From the NCBI RefSeq assembly GCF_001428895.1, contig NZ_LMJA01000002.1:294183-358182 (forward strand): DNA of 64,000 nt, in the 5' to 3' direction. The notes under the pieces were generated by a model. The model saw nothing but the letters and a program-made list of their open reading frames with translations. It had not been told where the DNA came from and ran no database searches. Each line of letters opens with the position of its first letter. Positions within the stretch are counted from its first letter, which is position 1. Below are positions 46,889 through 55,165 of the stretch, in pieces. Origin of the DNA: Mycobacterium sp. Root265 (GTDB taxonomy: Bacteria; Actinomycetota; Actinomycetes; Mycobacteriales; Mycobacteriaceae). Position numbers and translations under genes: made by a program.

Positions 46889-47113
46889 ATGACATCGAAC
46901 AAACTGAAGCTGCTGTGTGCCGGCGCCGGCGTCGGTGCGATGCTGACCATGGCGGGTGTTTCCGTGGTTCAGGGCGCCACGTTCAGCGCCGATCCGGCCC
47001 CGCCGGGCCCCGGTCCGGGTGTCACCGCGCCGGAGACCACCGAGCCGCTGGCACCCGGCGACAACATCGATGTGACCACCGCACCGCGGGAAGCCGACGA
47101 ATCGGGGACCTGA
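46889..47113 (+). CDS. Small secreted Pro/Thr-rich protein, tandem copy 1
   Basis: A 74-residue product. The N-terminal MTSNKLKLLCAGAGVGAML forms a signal peptide or anchor, followed by FSADPAPPGPGPG and an acidic Thr/Pro tail. The first 35 residues are nearly identical to the next gene (MTSNKLKLLFAGAGVGAV...). No ribosome-binding site is obvious. A clear terminator follows at 47128-47161. No function is recognised. Confidence 0.7.
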   Translation: MTSNKLKLLCAGAGVGAMLTMAGVSVVQGATFSADPAPPGPGPGVTAPETTEPLAPGDNIDVTTAPREADESGT

Positions 47114-47232: not shown

Positions 47233-47466
47233 ATGACATCGAACAAACTGAAGCTGCTGTTTGCAGGCGCGGGCGTCGGTGCAGTACTGGCCATGACCGG
47301 CATTTCCGTCGTCCAGACCACTACGTTCAGCGCCGATCCGGCGTTACCCGAGCCGACGGTGCCGGGCATCGTGACCGAGGTGACGGAGGCGCCCACCGAG
47401 GGGCCCACCCTGGAGGCCGAGACCCCGACCTACACCACGACCACCACCGTGGCACCGGCACCCTGA
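47233..47466 (+). CDS. Small secreted Pro/Thr/Glu-rich protein, tandem copy 2
   Basis: A 77-residue paralogue of the preceding gene. The signal region MTSNKLKLLFAGAGVGAVL matches copy 1 almost exactly, as does FSADPA at the mature start. The tails differ: copy 2 has EVTEAPTEGP and TYTTTTTVAPAP. Conserved signal and divergent tail suggest a recent duplication with free drift or adaptation of the exported part. The upstream frame extension is rejected, since it would cross the terminator. Confidence 0.7.
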   Translation: MTSNKLKLLFAGAGVGAVLAMTGISVVQTTTFSADPALPEPTVPGIVTEVTEAPTEGPTLEAETPTYTTTTTVAPAP

Positions 47467-47640: not shown

Positions 47641-47710
47641 ACCGCCCACCCTGACCGACACGGCTGGGCGCAGGCTGTGCGGGACATCGGAGGGCGATGA
47701 GCGTAAATCT

Positions 47711-47743
47711 CACAGCTTGCGCATAGGAACGGCACAGGGTCCG
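47711..47743. promoter_or_regulatory. Tandem 11-bp repeat array upstream of tcrX
   Basis: Three 11-bp steps, CACAGCTTGCG, CATAGGAACGG and CACAGGGTCCG, all start with CA(C/T)AG. The period is one DNA helical turn, as for OmpR-family regulators. The first two steps also fit a 7+4+7 PhoP-like pattern (TCACAGC-N4-GCATAGG). The array ends 26 bases before ATG 47770 and lies in the region shared with the small membrane gene on the other strand. Confidence 0.65.
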
Positions 47744-47769
47744 CCCACCGCAGTGCCAATAATGGAGAC

Positions 47770-48507
47770 ATGACGTCCCACGAGGCACCGGCACGCGCGG
47801 TGATGCACCGCGCCGACGGCAGGCCGATCCAGGTTCTCGTCGTCGATGACGAGCCGGTGCTGGCCGAGCTGGTCTCGATGGCACTGCGCTACGAGGGTTG
47901 GGACATCGCGACGGCCGGTGACGGGGCGGGCGCCATCGAACTGGCGCGCGACAACCCGCCGGACGTGGTGGTCCTCGACGTGATGCTGCCGGACATGAGT
48001 GGGCTCGACGTGCTGCGCAGACTGCGCGAGATGCAACCCGGTCTGCCGTTGCTGCTGCTGACGGCGAAGGACTCGCTCGAGGACCGGATCGCCGGACTCA
48101 CCGCGGGCGGCGACGACTACGTGACCAAACCGTTCAGCATCGAAGAGGTCGTGCTTCGACTGCGGGCGCTGCTGCGCCGCACCGGGGTGGCCAACGATGC
48201 CGGCGACGCCCAGATCGTCGTCGGGGACCTGGTGCTCGACGAGGACAGTCACGAGGTGACCCGGGCGGGTGAGCCGATTTCGCTGACCGCAACGGAATTC
48301 GAGCTGCTGCGGTTCATGATGCGCAACGCCAAACGGGTGCTGAGCAAGGCGCAGATCCTCGACCGGGTGTGGAGCTATGACTTCGGTGGCCGGTCCAATA
48401 TCGTCGAACTCTATGTGTCGTATCTGCGCAAGAAGATCGACAGCGGTCGCGAACCGATGATCCACACGCTGCGCGGCGCCGGCTACGTCCTGCGTCCGCC
48501 GCGCTGA
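47770..48507 (+). CDS. tcrX: TcrX-type OmpR-family response regulator
   Basis: A 245-residue response regulator. Receiver domain: acidic pocket DD (about 26-27), phospho-Asp70 in VVVLDVMLPDMSG and Lys120 in YVTKPF. Output domain: winged helix (about 150-245) with SKAQILDRVWSYDFGGRSNIVELYVSYLRKKID. It closely resembles M. tuberculosis TcrX (Rv3765c) as recalled, including LRYEGWDIATAGDG. ATG 47770 follows an AATAAT -10-like box (47758-47763) by 6 bases and is probably leaderless. It is followed 4 bases later by the kinase. The upstream 11-bp repeats suggest autoregulation. Confidence 0.9.
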   Translation: MTSHEAPARAVMHRADGRPIQVLVVDDEPVLAELVSMALRYEGWDIATAGDGAGAIELARDNPPDVVVLDVMLPDMSGLDVLRRLREMQPGLPLLLLTAKDSLEDRIAGLTAGGDDYVTKPFSIEEVVLRLRALLRRTGVANDAGDAQIVVGDLVLDEDSHEVTRAGEPISLTATEFELLRFMMRNAKRVLSKAQILDRVWSYDFGGRSNIVELYVSYLRKKIDSGREPMIHTLRGAGYVLRPPR

Positions 48508-48511
48508 TCCG

Positions 48512-50077
48512 ATGAGCAGCCGCCTGCTCGCACCGCGCACCTGGTCGCTGCGGATGCGGCTGCTGGTCACCCAGGTGATCCTGCTGGCGTTGGTCTGCGT
48601 GGCCATCGGTGTGGCCACCGAATTCGCGTTGCAGCGTTTCCTGATGCGACAGCTCGACACCCAACTCGTCGAAGCGGCTCGCCGCTCGGCCGGAATCATG
48701 GAACTGCCACCACCGTTCCACCTGCCACCCCCGCCGCCGGGCAGTCCCGCGCCCCAGATCCGGTTCCGGTTCGATCCCGAGCAGGGGCCGGGACCAGGGT
48801 TTCTCAACGCACCGGGGCAGGCGATCAATACCGTCGGGGCGGTCATCGGGCCCGGGGGCCGTGGCGGCGGGCAGGAGCGCAGCGACCAGGGAATCCAGAT
48901 CGACGGCGGTGTGATCACCTCCGAAGGTGCCACCGCCGATATCAGCGCGGCAGCATCCGCGCAGTTGGCCCAGGTGGCGCCCGACCGCACCCCGGTCACC
49001 ATCGACCTCGACGGGCTGGGCTCGTACCGGGTGATAGCGGGACAGTTGCGCCACGGCGGACACCGCGTCGTCGTCGGGCTGCCCACCACCGTCGTCGACG
49101 AAACCCTGTGGTGGGTGCTGCTGATGTTCTGCGTGGTCTCGGCGGTCGCGCTGGCCGCCGCCACCGCCGTCGGGATCTGGATCATCCGACGCCAATTGGA
49201 GCCGCTGTCAAAGGTTTCCGCAGCGGCACGCGATGTCGCCGATCTGGAACTCGACAAGGGTGAGGTGCGGTTGCCGACCCCGATCGTGCTCGTCGATCCG
49301 GAGGGCGCGCACACCGAGATCGGTCAGCTGGGCTCGGCGCTGAACCGGATGCTGGACCGCATCGCCGGGGCGCTGTCCGCGCGCCATGCCAGCGAGACCC
49401 GGGTCCGGCAGTTCGTCTCCGATGCCAGCCATGAGCTGCGCACCCCGCTGGCGGCCATCCGCGGCTACACCGAATTGGCACAACGTAAACGAGATGAACT
49501 TCCCGAGGATGTCGCGCACGCGATGAGCCGGGTCGAATCCGAGACCCAGCGCCTCACCACCTTGGTCGAGGACATGCTGCTGCTGGCCCGCCTGGATGAG
49601 GGGCGCCCGCTGGAACGGGCCCCGGTGGATCTGGTCCGGGTGGTGGCCGACGCGGTCAGCGACGCCCATGCCGCGGGGCCCGAGCACGAGTGGACCCTGG
49701 AACTGCCCGATGACCCGGTGCAGGTCACCGGCGACCAGGCCCGTCTGCATCAGGTGCTGACCAATCTGCTGACCAACGCCCGGGTGCACACCCCGGCAGG
49801 CACCACCGTCACCACCTCGGTCTCGATGCGCAGCGATGGCGCCGCTGTGCTGGCGGTCACCGATGACGGCCCCGGCATCCCGGAAACGTTGCAGCCGGAG
49901 GTCTTCGAGCGGTTCGCCCGCGGCGATTCCTCGCGCTCCCGGCGCGGCGGCAGCACCGGACTGGGACTGGCGATCGTCGCGGCAGTGGTGAAAGCGCACC
50001 GCGGCACGATCGATCTGCACAGTGTGCCCGGCGATACCCGGTTCGTGATCACCCTGCCCGCCGACGGTCACAGCTGA
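48512..50077 (+). CDS. tcrY: TcrY-type sensor histidine kinase
   Basis: A 521-residue membrane kinase. Two membrane helices (about 15-40 and 200-225) flank an extracytoplasmic sensor domain with a Pro-rich tract PPPFHLPPPPPGSP. HAMP-like linker, then the phospho-His307 in SDASHELRTPL, and an ATP-binding domain with N, DDGPGIP and GLGLAI boxes. It should phosphorylate TcrX. It follows tcrX with a 4-base gap, so they are co-transcribed. Its last codons overlap the repeat array of the next promoter (50069-50101). The signal sensed is unknown. Confidence 0.9.
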   Translation: MSSRLLAPRTWSLRMRLLVTQVILLALVCVAIGVATEFALQRFLMRQLDTQLVEAARRSAGIMELPPPFHLPPPPPGSPAPQIRFRFDPEQGPGPGFLNAPGQAINTVGAVIGPGGRGGGQERSDQGIQIDGGVITSEGATADISAAASAQLAQVAPDRTPVTIDLDGLGSYRVIAGQLRHGGHRVVVGLPTTVVDETLWWVLLMFCVVSAVALAAATAVGIWIIRRQLEPLSKVSAAARDVADLELDKGEVRLPTPIVLVDPEGAHTEIGQLGSALNRMLDRIAGALSARHASETRVRQFVSDASHELRTPLAAIRGYTELAQRKRDELPEDVAHAMSRVESETQRLTTLVEDMLLLARLDEGRPLERAPVDLVRVVADAVSDAHAAGPEHEWTLELPDDPVQVTGDQARLHQVLTNLLTNARVHTPAGTTVTTSVSMRSDGAAVLAVTDDGPGIPETLQPEVFERFARGDSSRSRRGGSTGLGLAIVAAVVKAHRGTIDLHSVPGDTRFVITLPADGHS

Positions 50078-50101
50078 CGCACAGCCAGGACACATACCGG
50101 G
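50069..50101. promoter_or_regulatory. Tandem 11-bp repeat array upstream of the first GT39 gene
   Basis: CACAGCTGACG, CACAGCCAGGA and CACATACCGGG follow head to tail. The first pair also reads TCACAGC-N4-GCACAGC, the direct-repeat form recalled for PhoP-type regulators. The centre of the first pair lies about 52 bases before ATG 50129, equal to the tcrX promoter. A CAGAAT -10 (50117-50122) lies 6 bases before that ATG. Confidence 0.65.
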
Positions 50102-50128
50102 CGTAGCGGCGCACACCAGAATCGTTGG

Positions 50129-51967
50129 ATGACTGCCGTACTGACGCGTGCCCCCGTCACGACCGCACCGCCGCGGCGGCCCGGCGGCGAACGTCTCGCG
50201 TTCGGGTCCCTGCTGGTCGCGACGGCGGCGCTGTACCTGTGGAACCTGTCGGCCAGCGGCTGGGCCAACAGTTTCTACTCCGCGGCGGTGCAGGCGGGAA
50301 GCCAGAGCTGGACGGCGTGGCTGTTCGGATCCAGCGATGCGGCCAACGCCATCACCGTCGACAAGACCCCGGCAGCACTATGGGTGATGGGTCTGTCGGC
50401 GCGGATGTTCGGATTCAGTTCGTGGAGCGTGCTCCTACCGCAGGCCCTGATGGGTGTGGTCTCCGTCGCGCTGCTGTACGCGGCCGTGCGGCGGGTCAGC
50501 GGGCCCGGCGCGGCCCTGCTCGCCGGTGCGGTGCTGGCATCGACACCGGTGGCGGCGTTGATGTTCCGGTTCAACAACCCCGACGCACTGCTGGTGCTGT
50601 TGCTGGTGGCCGCGGCGTACTGCGTACAACGCGCCTGCGCGCCCGACGCCGGACGGTGGTGGATGGTTGCCGTCGGCGTTCTGGCCGGATTCGCGTTTCT
50701 GGCCAAGATGCTGCAGGCCTTCCTGGTCCTGCCCGCATTCGCCGCCGCCTATCTGATCTGTGCGGCCGCCCCGCTGCGGACCCGGATACTACGACTCGGC
50801 GCAGGCATTGCGGCGCTGGTGGTTTCGGGTGGCTGGTACCTGCTCCTGGTCGAGTTGTGGCCGGCCGGTCGCCGTCCCTATATCGGGGGATCGCAGCACA
50901 ACAGCATCGTCGAACTGGCGCTCGGATACAACGGTGTCGGCAGGCTGACCGGGGCCGAGACCGGCGGGCTGGGGAACCTGAACTTCGACGTCGGCTGGGG
51001 GCGGTTGCTGGGCAGCGGGATGGGAGCCGATATCGGGTGGCTGCTGCCTGCCGCACTGATCTGCACCGGCGCCGGGTTCGTCCTGACGCGGCGGGCGCCG
51101 CGTACCGACGCGGCCCGGGCGGCGCTGATCATCTGGGCCGGCTGGCTGGTGCTGACGGCCGCGGTGTTCAGCTACGCCAATGGCATCGTGCACTCGTACT
51201 ACACCGTCGCCCTGGCGCCCGCGATCGCCGCATGCCTGGGCATCGGATCGGAATTGTTGTGGCGCAACCGGAACAAGCCACCCTGCGCGACCGCACTGGC
51301 CGGCACGGTGCTGGTGACGATCACCTTGACGGTGGTGCTGCTGGCGCGCAGGCCGGACTGGATGCCGTGGCTGCGGCCTGCGATCGCGGTGATCGGCGTG
51401 ACCGCGGCGGTGCTGATCCTGGTGAGCGGCCGGCTGCCGAAACCGGTGGACCGAATTGCCGCGGTGCTGGCGGCCGCGGCGACACTGGCCGGGCCCGTCG
51501 GCTACTCGGTGGCCACCGCGGCGGCCCCGCATCAGGGTGCGATCCCGATGGTGGGACCGGCGCGGGGCGGTGGGGGCTTCGGTCCCGGTTTCCTTGATGC
51601 GCCGGAACCGACACCGGAGCTCACTGCGCTGCTGACCGATGACGCCGCGCGCTATACCTGGCCGGCAGCGGTGGTGGGCTCCAACAACGCTGCGGGCTAT
51701 CAGCTGGCCGCCGATGTCCCGGTGATGGCGGTCGGCGGGTTCAACGGCACCGACCCCGCACCCACCCTGGATGAGTTCCGCGGGCTGGTGGCCGCGGGGC
51801 GCGTCCACTACTTCATCGAATCGCGCATCATGGCCAGTTCGCGCACCGACCACGGCGGCAGCGAGGCCGCGGTGGACATCGCGGGCTGGGTCGTGCATAC
51901 CTTCGTCCCGAGGACCGTCGGCGGCACCGTCGTCTACGACCTCACCGGCGCCGGAGCCGACTCATAG
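50129..51967 (+). CDS. GT39-family (ArnT/PMT-like) polyprenyl-sugar glycosyltransferase, paralogue 1
   Basis: A 612-residue membrane enzyme with about 10-12 hydrophobic segments, matching the dolichyl/polyprenyl-phosphate mannosyltransferase fold. The catalytic Asp in the first extracytoplasmic loop is likely D70 or D78 within FGSSDAANAITVDKTPAALW. The C-terminal part is a soluble extracytoplasmic domain with VVGSNNAAGYQL. It would transfer a sugar from a polyprenyl phosphate to a protein, lipid or polysaccharide outside the membrane. It is about 60% like the second GT39 gene by eye. The upstream repeats suggest TcrX control. Confidence 0.85.
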   Translation: MTAVLTRAPVTTAPPRRPGGERLAFGSLLVATAALYLWNLSASGWANSFYSAAVQAGSQSWTAWLFGSSDAANAITVDKTPAALWVMGLSARMFGFSSWSVLLPQALMGVVSVALLYAAVRRVSGPGAALLAGAVLASTPVAALMFRFNNPDALLVLLLVAAAYCVQRACAPDAGRWWMVAVGVLAGFAFLAKMLQAFLVLPAFAAAYLICAAAPLRTRILRLGAGIAALVVSGGWYLLLVELWPAGRRPYIGGSQHNSIVELALGYNGVGRLTGAETGGLGNLNFDVGWGRLLGSGMGADIGWLLPAALICTGAGFVLTRRAPRTDAARAALIIWAGWLVLTAAVFSYANGIVHSYYTVALAPAIAACLGIGSELLWRNRNKPPCATALAGTVLVTITLTVVLLARRPDWMPWLRPAIAVIGVTAAVLILVSGRLPKPVDRIAAVLAAAATLAGPVGYSVATAAAPHQGAIPMVGPARGGGGFGPGFLDAPEPTPELTALLTDDAARYTWPAAVVGSNNAAGYQLAADVPVMAVGGFNGTDPAPTLDEFRGLVAAGRVHYFIESRIMASSRTDHGGSEAAVDIAGWVVHTFVPRTVGGTVVYDLTGAGADS

Positions 51968-51973
51968 CCGGCA

Positions 51974-52006
51974 CACAGCTTGCGCCAACGGACGGCACAC
52001 CGTGGG
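51974..52006. promoter_or_regulatory. Tandem 11-bp repeat array upstream of the GT2-GT39 pair
   Basis: CACAGCTTGCG, CCAACGGACGG and CACACCGTGGG repeat every 11 bp. The first step is identical to that at tcrX over all 11 bases, and the ACGGCACA junction between steps two and three is shared as well. It lies just after the GT39 stop and 9-18 bases before the two possible GT2 starts. Confidence 0.55.
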
Positions 52007-52014
52007 CACCGAGC

Positions 52015-53241
52015 ATGGACACCATGACCGAGATCCTCTCCGCGGCACGCCCCAACGTCGCACTGACCGTCCCCGGTGTGCCGGTCGTCGACATCGTGGT
52101 GCCGGTATTCAACGAACAGGCTGCCCTGGAGAACTCGGTGCGCAGGCTGCACCGGCACCTACAGGACAATTTCACCTTCGCGGTGCGCATCACCATCGCC
52201 GACAACGCCAGCACCGATGACACCCCCCGCATCGCCGCCGCGCTCGCCGGTGACCTCGAGGGCGTGCGCATGGTGCGACTGGAGGAGAAGGGCCGCGGCC
52301 GCGCACTGCACAAGGTGTGGATCGAATCGGACGCGCCGGTGCTGGCCTACATGGATGTCGACCTGTCCACCGATCTGGCCGCGCTGGCGCCGCTGGTGGC
52401 CCCGCTGCTGTCCGGTCATTCCGACCTGGCCATCGGCACCCGGCTCAACCGCAGCTCACGCGTCGTCCGCGGCGCCAAACGGGAGTTCATCTCCCGCTGC
52501 TACAACCTGATCCTCAAATCGACACTGTCCGCCGGCTTCTCCGACGCGCAGTGCGGTTTCAAGGCGATCCGCGCAGATGTCGCCCGCGAACTGCTGCCCT
52601 ATGTCGCCGACACCGGCTGGTTCTTCGACACCGAACTGCTGGTGCTGGCCGAACGCAGCGGCCTACGGATCCACGAGGTGCCGGTGGACTGGGTCGACGA
52701 CCCGGACAGCCGGGTGGACATCGTCGCCACCGCCAAGGCCGACCTGCGCGGAATCGGACGGCTGCTGCGCGGCTTCACCGACGGCTCGATCCCCGTCAAC
52801 ACCATTGCCGCCCAACTGGGTTCGCGGCACGCAGCCGCACCGGGCTCCCTGCTGCGCCAAGTCGTGCGGTTCGGCACCGTGGGTGTGCTGTCCACCGCGG
52901 CATACCTGGTGTTGTTCCTGTTGCTGCACGGAGTCGTCGGAGCCCAGCTGGCCAATCTGCTGGCGCTGCTGCTGACCGCGATCGGCAACACCGCGGCCAA
53001 CCGGCGATTCACCTTCGGCGTGCGCGGCGCCGGTGCGGTCGCGCGGCATCATGTCGAAGGTCTCATCGTGTTCGCCATCGCGCTGGCCATCACCAGTGGT
53101 TCGCTGGCCGGACTGCACGCCGTGACCGATCGCCCCGACCAACTGCTGGAGACATCCGTACTGGTGATCGCCAACCTGGTGGCCACCGTCGCGCGCTTCG
53201 TCCTGCTGCGCGGCTGGGTCTTTCACCCCCGCCGCCGCTGA
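52015..53241 (+). CDS. GT2 polyprenyl-phosphate glycosyltransferase fused to a GtrA domain
   Basis: A 408-residue protein. Residues 25-250 form a GT2 DPM1-like domain with VVPVFNEQAAL, the metal-binding DVD of AYMDVDLSTD (114-116) and the acceptor region WFFDTELL. Residues 285-408 carry GtrA-type helices (RQVVRFGTVGVLSTAAY). Such fusions make a polyprenyl-phosphate sugar on the inner face and help flip it outward. This would supply substrate to the adjacent GT39 enzymes. Starts at 52015 and 52024 are both possible. It lies 22 bases before the second GT39 gene, likely a single unit. Confidence 0.87.
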   Translation: MDTMTEILSAARPNVALTVPGVPVVDIVVPVFNEQAALENSVRRLHRHLQDNFTFAVRITIADNASTDDTPRIAAALAGDLEGVRMVRLEEKGRGRALHKVWIESDAPVLAYMDVDLSTDLAALAPLVAPLLSGHSDLAIGTRLNRSSRVVRGAKREFISRCYNLILKSTLSAGFSDAQCGFKAIRADVARELLPYVADTGWFFDTELLVLAERSGLRIHEVPVDWVDDPDSRVDIVATAKADLRGIGRLLRGFTDGSIPVNTIAAQLGSRHAAAPGSLLRQVVRFGTVGVLSTAAYLVLFLLLHGVVGAQLANLLALLLTAIGNTAANRRFTFGVRGAGAVARHHVEGLIVFAIALAITSGSLAGLHAVTDRPDQLLETSVLVIANLVATVARFVLLRGWVFHPRRR

Positions 53242-53263: not shown

Positions 53264-55165
53264 ATGACCACGACTGCAGAAGTTCAGACGACGGCCGCAC
53301 AGGCGCCCGTGCCCGATATCCGCCCACGCTGGGAACGTCCGGGGTTGCTGGCGCTGCTCGCCGGCACCGCCGCGCTCTACCTGTGGGCGCTGGGCTCCAA
53401 CGGATGGGCCAACAGCTACTACGCCGCCGCTGCACAGGCGGGCACCCAGGACTGGAAGGCCTGGCTGTTCGGGTCCTTCGACGCGGGCAACGCCATCACG
53501 GTGGACAAGCCGCCCGCCGCGCTATGGGCAATGGCCTTGTCCGGCAGAGTGTTCGGATTCAACGAGTTCACCATGCTGCTGCCGCAGGCCCTGATGGGCG
53601 TGGCGGCCGTCGCGGTCTTGTACTTCACCGTGCGGCGCAGCAGTGGACCCGCGGCGGGGCTGATCGCCGGTGCCGCGCTCGCGCTGACACCGGTTGCGGC
53701 GCTGATGTTCCGGTACAACAATCCGGACGCGCTGCTGGTGCTGCTGCTCGTGGTCGCGGCGTACTGCATGGTGCGGGCAACCCAGCAGGGCAGCATGCGG
53801 TGGGTGGCGCTGTCGGGGAGCGCGGTCGGTTTCGCGTTCCTGACCAAGATGCTGCAGGCGTTTCTGGTGGTGCCCGCGCTGAGTCTGGTGTTCCTGGTTG
53901 CCGCACCGATGGCATTCTGGAAGCGCATCGGCGCGTTGCTGGTCGGGGCAGTGGTCGCCGTATTTTCAGCGGGGTGGTACATCGCACTGGTGAGCCTGTG
54001 GCCGGCGGATTCCCGGCCCTATATCGCCGGATCGAGCGACAACAGCCTGCTGCAGTTGGCATTCGGCTACAACGGTATCGACCGCATCGTCGGTCAGGGC
54101 CAGCCCGGCGGCGGGCCCGGACAGGGTGGCCCCGGCCCGGGCGGACCCGGCGGTGGGGGAGCCAACCTGTTCTTCGGTGGGGACCCGGGTATCGGCAGGC
54201 TCTTCGGCGCGTCCATGGGGACCGAGGCGTCCTGGCTGCTGCCGGCGGCACTGGTCGGCCTGGTCGCCGTGCTGTGGCTCACCCGGCGCGCCGCGCGCAC
54301 CGACATGGTGCGGGCGTCCACGCTGATGTGGGGTGGCTGGCTGCTCGTCACCGGTGCCGTGTTCAGCTTCATGGACGGCATCATCCATCCGTACTACACG
54401 GTGGCCCTCGCTCCGGCGACCGCTGCACTGGTGGGGATTTCGGTGGTCGAGCTGTGGCGTCGCCGCGAGCACCGGGCCGCGCGGGCGGTGTTGGCACTGA
54501 CCCTGGCGGGCACCGGAGGGTGGGCCTTCGCCCTGCTGGCGCGACTTCCGCAGTGGTGGCCGGTGCTGCGGTGGTCGGTGCTCATCGTGTCCGTGGTCGT
54601 CGCGGTGGTACTGGCGTTCGGGGCGCACCGACTGGGCCGGGCGGCCGGTGCGGCGCTGGTGGCCGCGGCCCTGCTGGCCGGCGGCGCGGGTAGCGCCGCG
54701 TGGGCGGTGGCGACCGTCGCAGGCGGCAACAGCGGTGGCCCGATGGCGGTGTCCGGTCCGGCTCAGCAACACGATTTCGGGCCCGGCGGTCCGGGCGGGC
54801 GCCCCGGCGGACCAGGGTCCCGCGTCGACGACACGGCGCTGGCCGACCTGGTGACCGGGCTGGACAATCGGTGGGCGGCAGCGACAATCGGCTCCATGAT
54901 GGCCGGAGATCTGGAACTCAAGAGCGGCGCCTCGATCATGTCGATCGGCGGATTCGCGGGCGGGGACAATTCGCCGACACTGCAGCAGTTCCAGGACTAC
55001 GTCGCCGCCGGGGATGTGCGGTACTTCATCGCCGGCGAGCGGTTCGGCCCCGGCGGTCAGCGGGATGGCTCGGGCACCCAGATCACCGAGTGGGTGCAGC
55101 AGAACTTCGGCACGCTCGATGTCGGTGGCAGCACGGTGTACGACCTGAGCACACCGCTGCGTTGA
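53264..55165 (+). CDS. GT39-family (ArnT/PMT-like) polyprenyl-sugar glycosyltransferase, paralogue 2
   Basis: A 633-residue paralogue of the gene at 50129, with matching core FGSFDAGNAITVDKPPAALW (D73 and D81), LMFRYNNPDALLVL and SYYAAAAQAG. The loop near residue 285 has a long Gly/Pro run (GQGQPGGGPGQGG, then further repeats) absent from paralogue 1, suggesting slippage or a flexible linker. The C-terminal domain includes TIGSMMAGDLELKSGASIM. GAAGGA at 53253-53258 supports ATG 53264. Different acceptor or sugar specificity from paralogue 1 is plausible but not shown. Confidence 0.85.
   Translation: MTTTAEVQTTAAQAPVPDIRPRWERPGLLALLAGTAALYLWALGSNGWANSYYAAAAQAGTQDWKAWLFGSFDAGNAITVDKPPAALWAMALSGRVFGFNEFTMLLPQALMGVAAVAVLYFTVRRSSGPAAGLIAGAALALTPVAALMFRYNNPDALLVLLLVVAAYCMVRATQQGSMRWVALSGSAVGFAFLTKMLQAFLVVPALSLVFLVAAPMAFWKRIGALLVGAVVAVFSAGWYIALVSLWPADSRPYIAGSSDNSLLQLAFGYNGIDRIVGQGQPGGGPGQGGPGPGGPGGGGANLFFGGDPGIGRLFGASMGTEASWLLPAALVGLVAVLWLTRRAARTDMVRASTLMWGGWLLVTGAVFSFMDGIIHPYYTVALAPATAALVGISVVELWRRREHRAARAVLALTLAGTGGWAFALLARLPQWWPVLRWSVLIVSVVVAVVLAFGAHRLGRAAGAALVAAALLAGGAGSAAWAVATVAGGNSGGPMAVSGPAQQHDFGPGGPGGRPGGPGSRVDDTALADLVTGLDNRWAAATIGSMMAGDLELKSGASIMSIGGFAGGDNSPTLQQFQDYVAAGDVRYFIAGERFGPGGQRDGSGTQITEWVQQNFGTLDVGGSTVYDLSTPLR

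Follow-up and report, generated by a model that had tools for sequence, protein, structure and literature searches.

A four-unit 11-bp direct repeat in three promoters of a mycobacterial tcrXY-glycosyltransferase locus and its probable recognition by TcrX

Which regulator, if any, joins a two-component system to the sugar-transfer genes that follow it is the question raised by a stretch of DNA from Mycobacterium sp. Root265 (RefSeq assembly GCF_001428895.1, contig NZ_LMJA01000002.1, positions 294,183 to 358,182, forward strand; the whole 64,000-nucleotide stretch is referred to here as the window). By their domain matches, five genes on the same strand encode the response regulator TcrX, of the OmpR family, the histidine kinase TcrY, a glycosyltransferase (GT) of the GT39/YkcB_C type, a protein in which GT2 and GtrA are fused, and another GT39/YkcB_C protein. 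A direct repeat with a period of 11 base pairs (bp), TCACAGC-N4-[T/G]CA[C/T]AGC, of the type bound by PhoP, was found in all three promoters of this locus. On the evidence given below, it is likely that TcrX, acting through a four-unit form of this repeat, activates both tcrXY and the GT2-GtrA/GT39 envelope glycosylation cassette. The features used are listed by window position; profile scores, with expectation values (E), refer to a sequence profile of 57 positions built from 24 sites of other genomes, the window being excluded.

47710..47749, + strand: operator 1, tcrXY promoter; four 11-bp units TCACAGC/GCATAGG/GCACAGG/GCCCACC; profile 36.6 bits, E 4e-8.
47758..47763, + strand: -10 box AATAAT, 6 bases before the ATG at 47770; a leaderless start is predicted.
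47770..48507, + strand: tcrX, OmpR/PhoB-family response regulator, 245 residues; Response_reg and Trans_reg_C domains.
48512..50077, + strand: tcrY, sensor histidine kinase, 521 residues; HAMP, HisKA and HATPase_c domains.
50068..50107, + strand: operator 2; TCACAGC/GCACAGC/ACACATA/GCGTAGC; profile 27.7 bits, E 2.5e-5; unit 1 overlaps the last tcrY codons.
50117..50122, + strand: -10 box CAGAAT, 6 bases before the ATG at 50129.
50129..51967, + strand: first GT39, GT-C mannosyltransferase-like, 612 residues; PMT_2 and YkcB_C domains.
51962..52001, + strand: operator 3; TCATAGC/ACACAGC/GCCAACG/GCACACC; profile 33.6 bits, E 3.5e-7; unit 1 overlaps the GT39 stop codon.
52011..52016, + strand: -10 box GAGCAT, 7 bases before the ATG at 52024; aligned with six mycobacterial relatives.
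52024..53241, + strand: GT2 polyprenyl-phosphate sugar synthase-like protein with a fused GtrA/DPMS membrane domain; Glycos_transf_2 and GtrA_DPMS_TM domains.
53264..55165, + strand: second GT39, 633 residues; PMT_2 and YkcB_C domains.

The preliminary description of this DNA had reported arrays of three 11-bp steps in the three promoters. Their coordinates and letters were exact at all three places, 47711 (CACAGCTTGCG/CATAGGAACGG/CACAGGGTCCG), 50069 (CACAGCTGACG/CACAGCCAGGA/CACATACCGGG) and 51974 (CACAGCTTGCG/CCAACGGACGG/CACACCGTGGG); the boxes AATAAT and CAGAAT were each confirmed to lie exactly 6 bases from an ATG. The 11-bp steps were retained, and the count was revised to four units in the register common to relatives. 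The third array is present and starts one unit earlier than had been proposed, with TCATAGC at 51962, a register in which its geometry fits the ATG at 52024 and the -10 box GAGCAT. When the promoters were aligned with those of relatives, the units fell at 0, 11, 22 and 33, the -10 box at 48-49 and the start codon at 60-62. A box resembling nATAnT occupies the place of the tcrX -10 in most of the mycobacterial relatives aligned. The TCACAGC-like units and their 4-bp spacer are those of a PhoP-type tandem direct-repeat operator. The longest open reading frame for GT2-GtrA begins at 52015, and the ATG at 52024 is its likely start. Between GT2 and the second GT39 no operator was found in the window (best score 7.9), and the second GT39 is therefore probably co-transcribed with GT2 from the third promoter.

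Within the window the spacer-4 score, compared with random windows of the same sequence, gave p=0.0075 upstream of tcrX and p=0.0005 at the kinase-GT39 junction. When the whole 6.67-Mb genome was searched with the profile (150 of 5551 first-look candidates scored, 10 matches reported), only the three promoters stood out, with E values of 4.0e-8, 3.5e-7 and 2.5e-5; the next match had 0.41. Short patterns gave no such separation: genome-wide, CACAGC-N5-CACAGC occurred 6 times against 5 in the reversed control and TCACAG-N6-CAYAG 5 times against 4, neither being an excess, and a triple CAYAG with one mismatch allowed occurred 6 times against 3, the tcrX site alone being free of mismatches. The three sites are thus set apart from the rest of the genome by the longer profile only. 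The near-control counts of the dimer patterns would suit the view that the repeats arose by chance or through coding constraint on the kinase C-terminus, as would the overlap of operator 2 with the end of tcrY and the start of the repeat inside the coding end in most of the Streptomyces junctions listed. This view is hardly credible, in that the longer profile tells the three sites from the rest of the genome, the repeat lies outside the kinase gene in several other genera, and, of 32 loci in which the kinase has no GT neighbour, 30 did not reach a score of 10 at the kinase 3' end (the exceptions being L058 with 10.4 and L095 with 10.7; five loci with no usable kinase match and three whose glycosyltransferase is distant were omitted from this control).

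Among the six perfect CACAGC-N5-CACAGC sites of the genome, two that lie upstream of homologous TupA-like genes were considered as further targets. One PhoP-type dimer (L014, 1500-1570) precedes an ATPgrasp_TupA gene; the other (L015, 1430-1520) precedes a decayed cluster, in which a fragment of a formyltransferase gene stands before a broken gene homologous to that of the L014 protein. These targets were not accepted for now: the best score anywhere in four good homologue loci of other genomes (L111-L114) was 9.4-9.9, and in the profile search the L015 site reached an E of only 0.44 and the L014 site was not listed.

Conservation was examined in 80 named loci, the best 80 of 591 confirmed relatives. 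When all repeated 5-mers at distances of 6-40 were counted, CACAG at 11 bp ranked first in both sets, with 28 of the 80 regions upstream of the regulator and 30 of the 39 junctions between kinase and GT; in random stretches of the same loci the counts never exceeded 5 of 80 or 3 of 39. With the window included, 64 of the 81 regions upstream of the regulator and 36 of the 40 junctions had a forward-strand score of at least 10 at spacer 4; other spacers gave 0-8 and 0-6, except for the two-step spacer of 15 (50 and 15). With the window left out, the same threshold was reached by 63/80 regulator promoters, representing 29 of 32 taxon labels (a mix of genera and families), and by 35/39 junctions (15 of 16 labels). 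Compared with random windows of their own locus, one short locus being left out, 74/80 upstream regions and 37/40 junctions had p<=0.05, and 47/80 and 25/40 had p<=0.01. The distance to the start codon is also kept. The regulator promoters with a score of at least 10 number 64, and in 56 of them unit 1 is followed at 60-63 bp by an in-frame ATG or GTG (29 at 61 and 25 at 62), the codon closest to 61 being chosen; with this choice dropped and the window excluded, 55 of 63 had an in-frame start at 59-63, against 1-12 for windows shifted by 9-21 bp. For the third operator, 9 of the 16 loci in which GT39 is followed by GT2 had a forward site of at least 9.4 around the gap, including all six mycobacterial ones; the list for the remaining seven contains no forward site above 7.7, and in these either the aligned ends of the genes overlap or the alignment had put the GT2 start in the wrong place. 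An arrangement in which the repeat precedes both the regulator and the sugar-transfer genes is found in soil mycobacteria, Streptomyces and other actinobacteria. Absence of the arrays from close relatives, the outcome named in the preliminary description as contrary to its proposal, was not observed: array and start-codon distance are kept in most of the mycobacterial loci examined and far beyond. Its suggestion of one regulator for its own operon and the sugar-transfer genes, that is, of a shared regulon, is well supported.

Sixty genomes of the genus, that of the window included, were then searched with the profile; 52 had at least one match and 29 had YkcB_C. Two or more operator matches were found in 27 of the 29 genomes with YkcB_C, against 4 of the 31 that lack it (Fisher 1.1e-10, in a test that ignores relatedness and with training species of the profile possibly among the 60). 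In the genomes with YkcB_C, 68 of 71 operator matches lay within 8 kilobases (kb) of a YkcB_C gene, in 27 of the 29; conversely, 53 of 96 YkcB_C matches lay within 8 kb of an operator match. Sites were also seen at additional cassettes. The second GT2/GT39 cassette of G019, located on a different contig (L134), has the same operator geometry before GT2 (profile E 1.5e-6), with no tcrXY match within the 12 kb examined; in G050 (L139) a cassette has a dimer score of 10.7 before GT2, no profile match, and no tcrXY within the 12 kb examined; in G035 the second cassette adjoins a second tcrXY-like pair and has a site before GT2. Of the five extra cassettes, a site precedes GT2 in three (L133, L134 and L139). 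The exceptions to the association of YkcB_C with two or more operator matches include G013, G030, G036, G040, G050 and G051, of which G013, G030, G040 and G050 were inspected. Direct reading of G040 (L138) revealed a site of 10.2 before GT2 in the absence of a profile match, and nothing was seen in the C2 stretch of G030 (L137). Two side observations concern the same loci. A second tcrX-like regulator, 69-73% identical, lies beside another GT2/GT39 cassette in L133, L135 and L142, and in G013 (L136, 6190-6250) the operator is kept after the kinase with no GT found within the 12 kb examined, possibly as a relic.

The repeat is the consensus of Mycobacterium tuberculosis PhoP with its 4-bp spacer, and the promoter of phoP in the window's own genome (L003, 467 bits to M. 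tuberculosis PhoP, helix NVVESY) carries TCTCAGC-AAGT-TCACAAC with a score of 10.4. PhoP might accordingly read the arrays, or compete for them with TcrX, so that the cassette would belong to the PhoP regulon. We regard this as unlikely: the sites are located at tcrXY and the linked cassette across many genera, and the phoP promoter is missing from the 10 matches reported for the profile. The Streptomyces genomes bear on the same point. When 12 genomes were searched with PhoP, the best match by E value was TcrX itself in four Streptomyces (56-57%) and in Amycolatopsis xylanica (57%), one of the Streptomyces (G060) having a second, near-equal match (57%), and a separate relative at 60-77% was present in the other seven. 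In these four Streptomyces all linked kinase-GT junctions nevertheless carry the site (4/4, 10.5-11.9); the regulator's own promoter reached at least 10 in two of the four, with 9.2 in L049 and 7.5 in L082. TcrX is favoured as the reader because the operators lie at tcrXY and because the junction sites are present in Streptomyces although the best PhoP match there is TcrX. The preliminary description, which had TcrX as probable and PhoP as possible, is borne out in its preference, short of proof.

Fourteen matches to TcrX were found in the window's genome. The closest relative of the window regulator with a solved structure is M. tuberculosis PhoP; the recognition helix of the window regulator, NIVELY, is not that of an M. 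tuberculosis-type PhoP, and N[IV]VELY is shared by 78 of 81 TcrX-type regulators, the window included. The equivalents of PhoP Asn212, Glu215, Tyr217 and Tyr220, the named base contacts of that protein (PMC4832192), are retained in the recognition helix of the window. As a side observation, a third regulator of the same subfamily (L002, 61%, helix KTSIVDLY) is encoded in the same genome with a kinase adjoining, and its best upstream score is only 8.0.

The PhoP box of M. tuberculosis is described as TCACAGC-N4-TCACAGC; its spacer is strictly 4 bp long, and the tandem can extend to three and four units (PMC4832192). By comparison, phosphorylated TcrX would bind the four-unit 11-bp repeat head-to-tail, as PhoP does on its box; unit 3 would lie at about the expected -35 position, and TcrX would recruit RNA polymerase to the conserved -10 box. 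Leaderless transcripts would then arise from three promoters, serving tcrXY (as positive feedback), the first GT39, and GT2-GtrA with the second GT39. The synthase, flippase and GT-C transferase genes of a three-component glycosylation system are all in this one locus, as judged from domain matches. GT2 would load a sugar on polyprenyl phosphate, GtrA would flip it and GT39 would transfer it, so that a stimulus at TcrY would lead to decoration of an outer envelope component, the presumed acceptor. By analogy with TcrXY of M. tuberculosis, the stimulus may be acid.

The same direct repeats cover the -35 position, and TcrX might therefore repress the cassette, the array blocking polymerase. Repression is improbable in our judgement. 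No -35-like box was seen in the aligned promoters when these were inspected by eye only, no promoter scan having been run, and the geometry is like that of activators that replace the -35 contact, as PhoB-type activators do. In M. tuberculosis, a scrambled site abolished the pH-dependent activity of the tcrXY promoter, a loss that may be due in part to overlap with the -10 box (PMC10883919). Activation by TcrX is the reading retained here.

Several observations weigh against that reading. Scores stayed below 10 in 17 of the 80 regions upstream of the regulator and at 4 of the 39 junctions. Six upstream regions (L022, L040, L041, L062, L082 and L087) and three junctions (L031, L057 and L060) were not above random windows at p 0.05; the operator of L022 sits further upstream, owing to the start call, and M. 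rhodesiae (L031) lacks operator 2 and has operators 1 and 3. Among the sub-10 junctions, both Micromonospora reach 9.7 and L060 is a shortened locus. On the reverse strand, spacer 4 also gave at least 10 in 17 of 81 upstream regions, and in 0 of 40 junctions. In the genus, the lack of independence between species makes the Fisher value smaller than it should be; 43 of 96 YkcB_C matches have no operator match within 8 kb, so that many YkcB_C genes are not under the operator; and the extra cassettes L135 and L142 have no forward site of at least 10.2 before GT2. In the protein, PhoP Ser216, which lies near the bases, is replaced by leucine in 79 of 81 orthologues and by isoleucine in the other 2, and PhoP Val213 by isoleucine in the window. 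For M. tuberculosis TcrX, the published site is a 7-bp mirror repeat with its second half over the putative -10 box, and the same study reports that the other TcrX-bound promoters yielded no consensus (PMC10883919).

The reverse-strand repeats upstream of the regulator (L019-L098) form a separate observation; each is perhaps the operator of a divergent gene.

The relation to M. tuberculosis TcrXY, an autoregulated and acid-sensing system (PMC10883919), was examined further. The two are by all signs orthologous autoregulated two-component systems: the window regulator is 84-86% identical to most of the regulators of presumed slow growers, with the kinase adjoining, and in M. simulans the gene next to tcrXY is lpqH (Myco_19_kDa), presumably the gene order of M. 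tuberculosis itself. They differ in the published site, a mirror repeat with no regulon consensus, and in the neighbouring genes. Nine loci (L027-L030, L032-L035 and L037), which we take to be those of slow growers, have the regulator and kinase and no adjoining GT match. A perfect 7-bp mirror repeat that pairs unit 3 with the -10 box was found in three of these nine, near a rough estimate of chance. Control of the glycosylation cassette may have been the ancestral task of TcrXY in Actinomycetota, slow growers having lost the cassette, kept the array and been rewired, with the M. tuberculosis mirror repeat corresponding to unit 3 and the -10 box; we hold this proposal to be evenly balanced between true and false. 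If true, the last point would reconcile the M. tuberculosis site with the direct-repeat picture.

Just upstream of tcrX, at 46889-47113 and 47233-47466, lie two tandem genes for small proline-rich proteins that look secreted and resemble each other at the N-terminus (MTSNKLKLL...); neither has a Pfam match, and no operator match was reported there. The targets of M. tuberculosis TcrX include small proline-rich proteins (PMC10883919).

Parts of the arrangement have precedents. The operator resembles the M. tuberculosis PhoP box in its 7-bp motif, strict 4-bp spacer, tandem extension to three or four units and OmpR/PhoB-family regulator; it differs in that units 2 and 3 are often CATAG here, in the genes controlled, and in its proposed reader, which would be of the TcrX subfamily with leucine at PhoP Ser216. 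In Bacillus subtilis, ykcBC (the GT-C protein YkcB and the GT2 protein YkcC) are placed in the regulons of YclJ and YrkP (PMC5836110, PMC7961091), and two-component control of such a cassette is therefore not new in principle. Both cases combine two-component control with the GT2 and GT-C members of a proposed multi-component glycosylation system. The B. subtilis case, however, belongs to another phylum and an anaerobic context, and the portions of those papers used here do not show the regulator adjoining the genes; the likeness considered here is one of gene content and control. Three-component GtrA/GtrB/Gtr systems are described as comprising a lipid-linked sugar synthase, a flippase and a GT-C transferase (PMC11127046). 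The window has the same three activities, known here from the genes alone, but with GT2 and GtrA fused and two GT39 copies. In the open-access literature, at the level of titles and abstract openings and with subscription papers mostly outside its compass, nothing was found that connects TcrX with glycosyltransferases or with a consensus of the direct-repeat kind. A word search of a review of Streptomyces two-component systems (PMC9739842) returned a single match, in the reference list, and in the text so covered nothing on a TcrX-type regulator together with glycosyltransferases. The operator type and the regulator family are thus known; the regulon and a TcrX consensus were not found in the open-access literature searched.

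The analysis proposes an operator consensus for TcrX, one that the 2024 M. tuberculosis study could not find in the TcrX regulon (PMC10883919). It would tie TcrXY to envelope glycosylation, and would provide a conserved circuit together with a binding site, open to test, for a regulator family of which little is understood.

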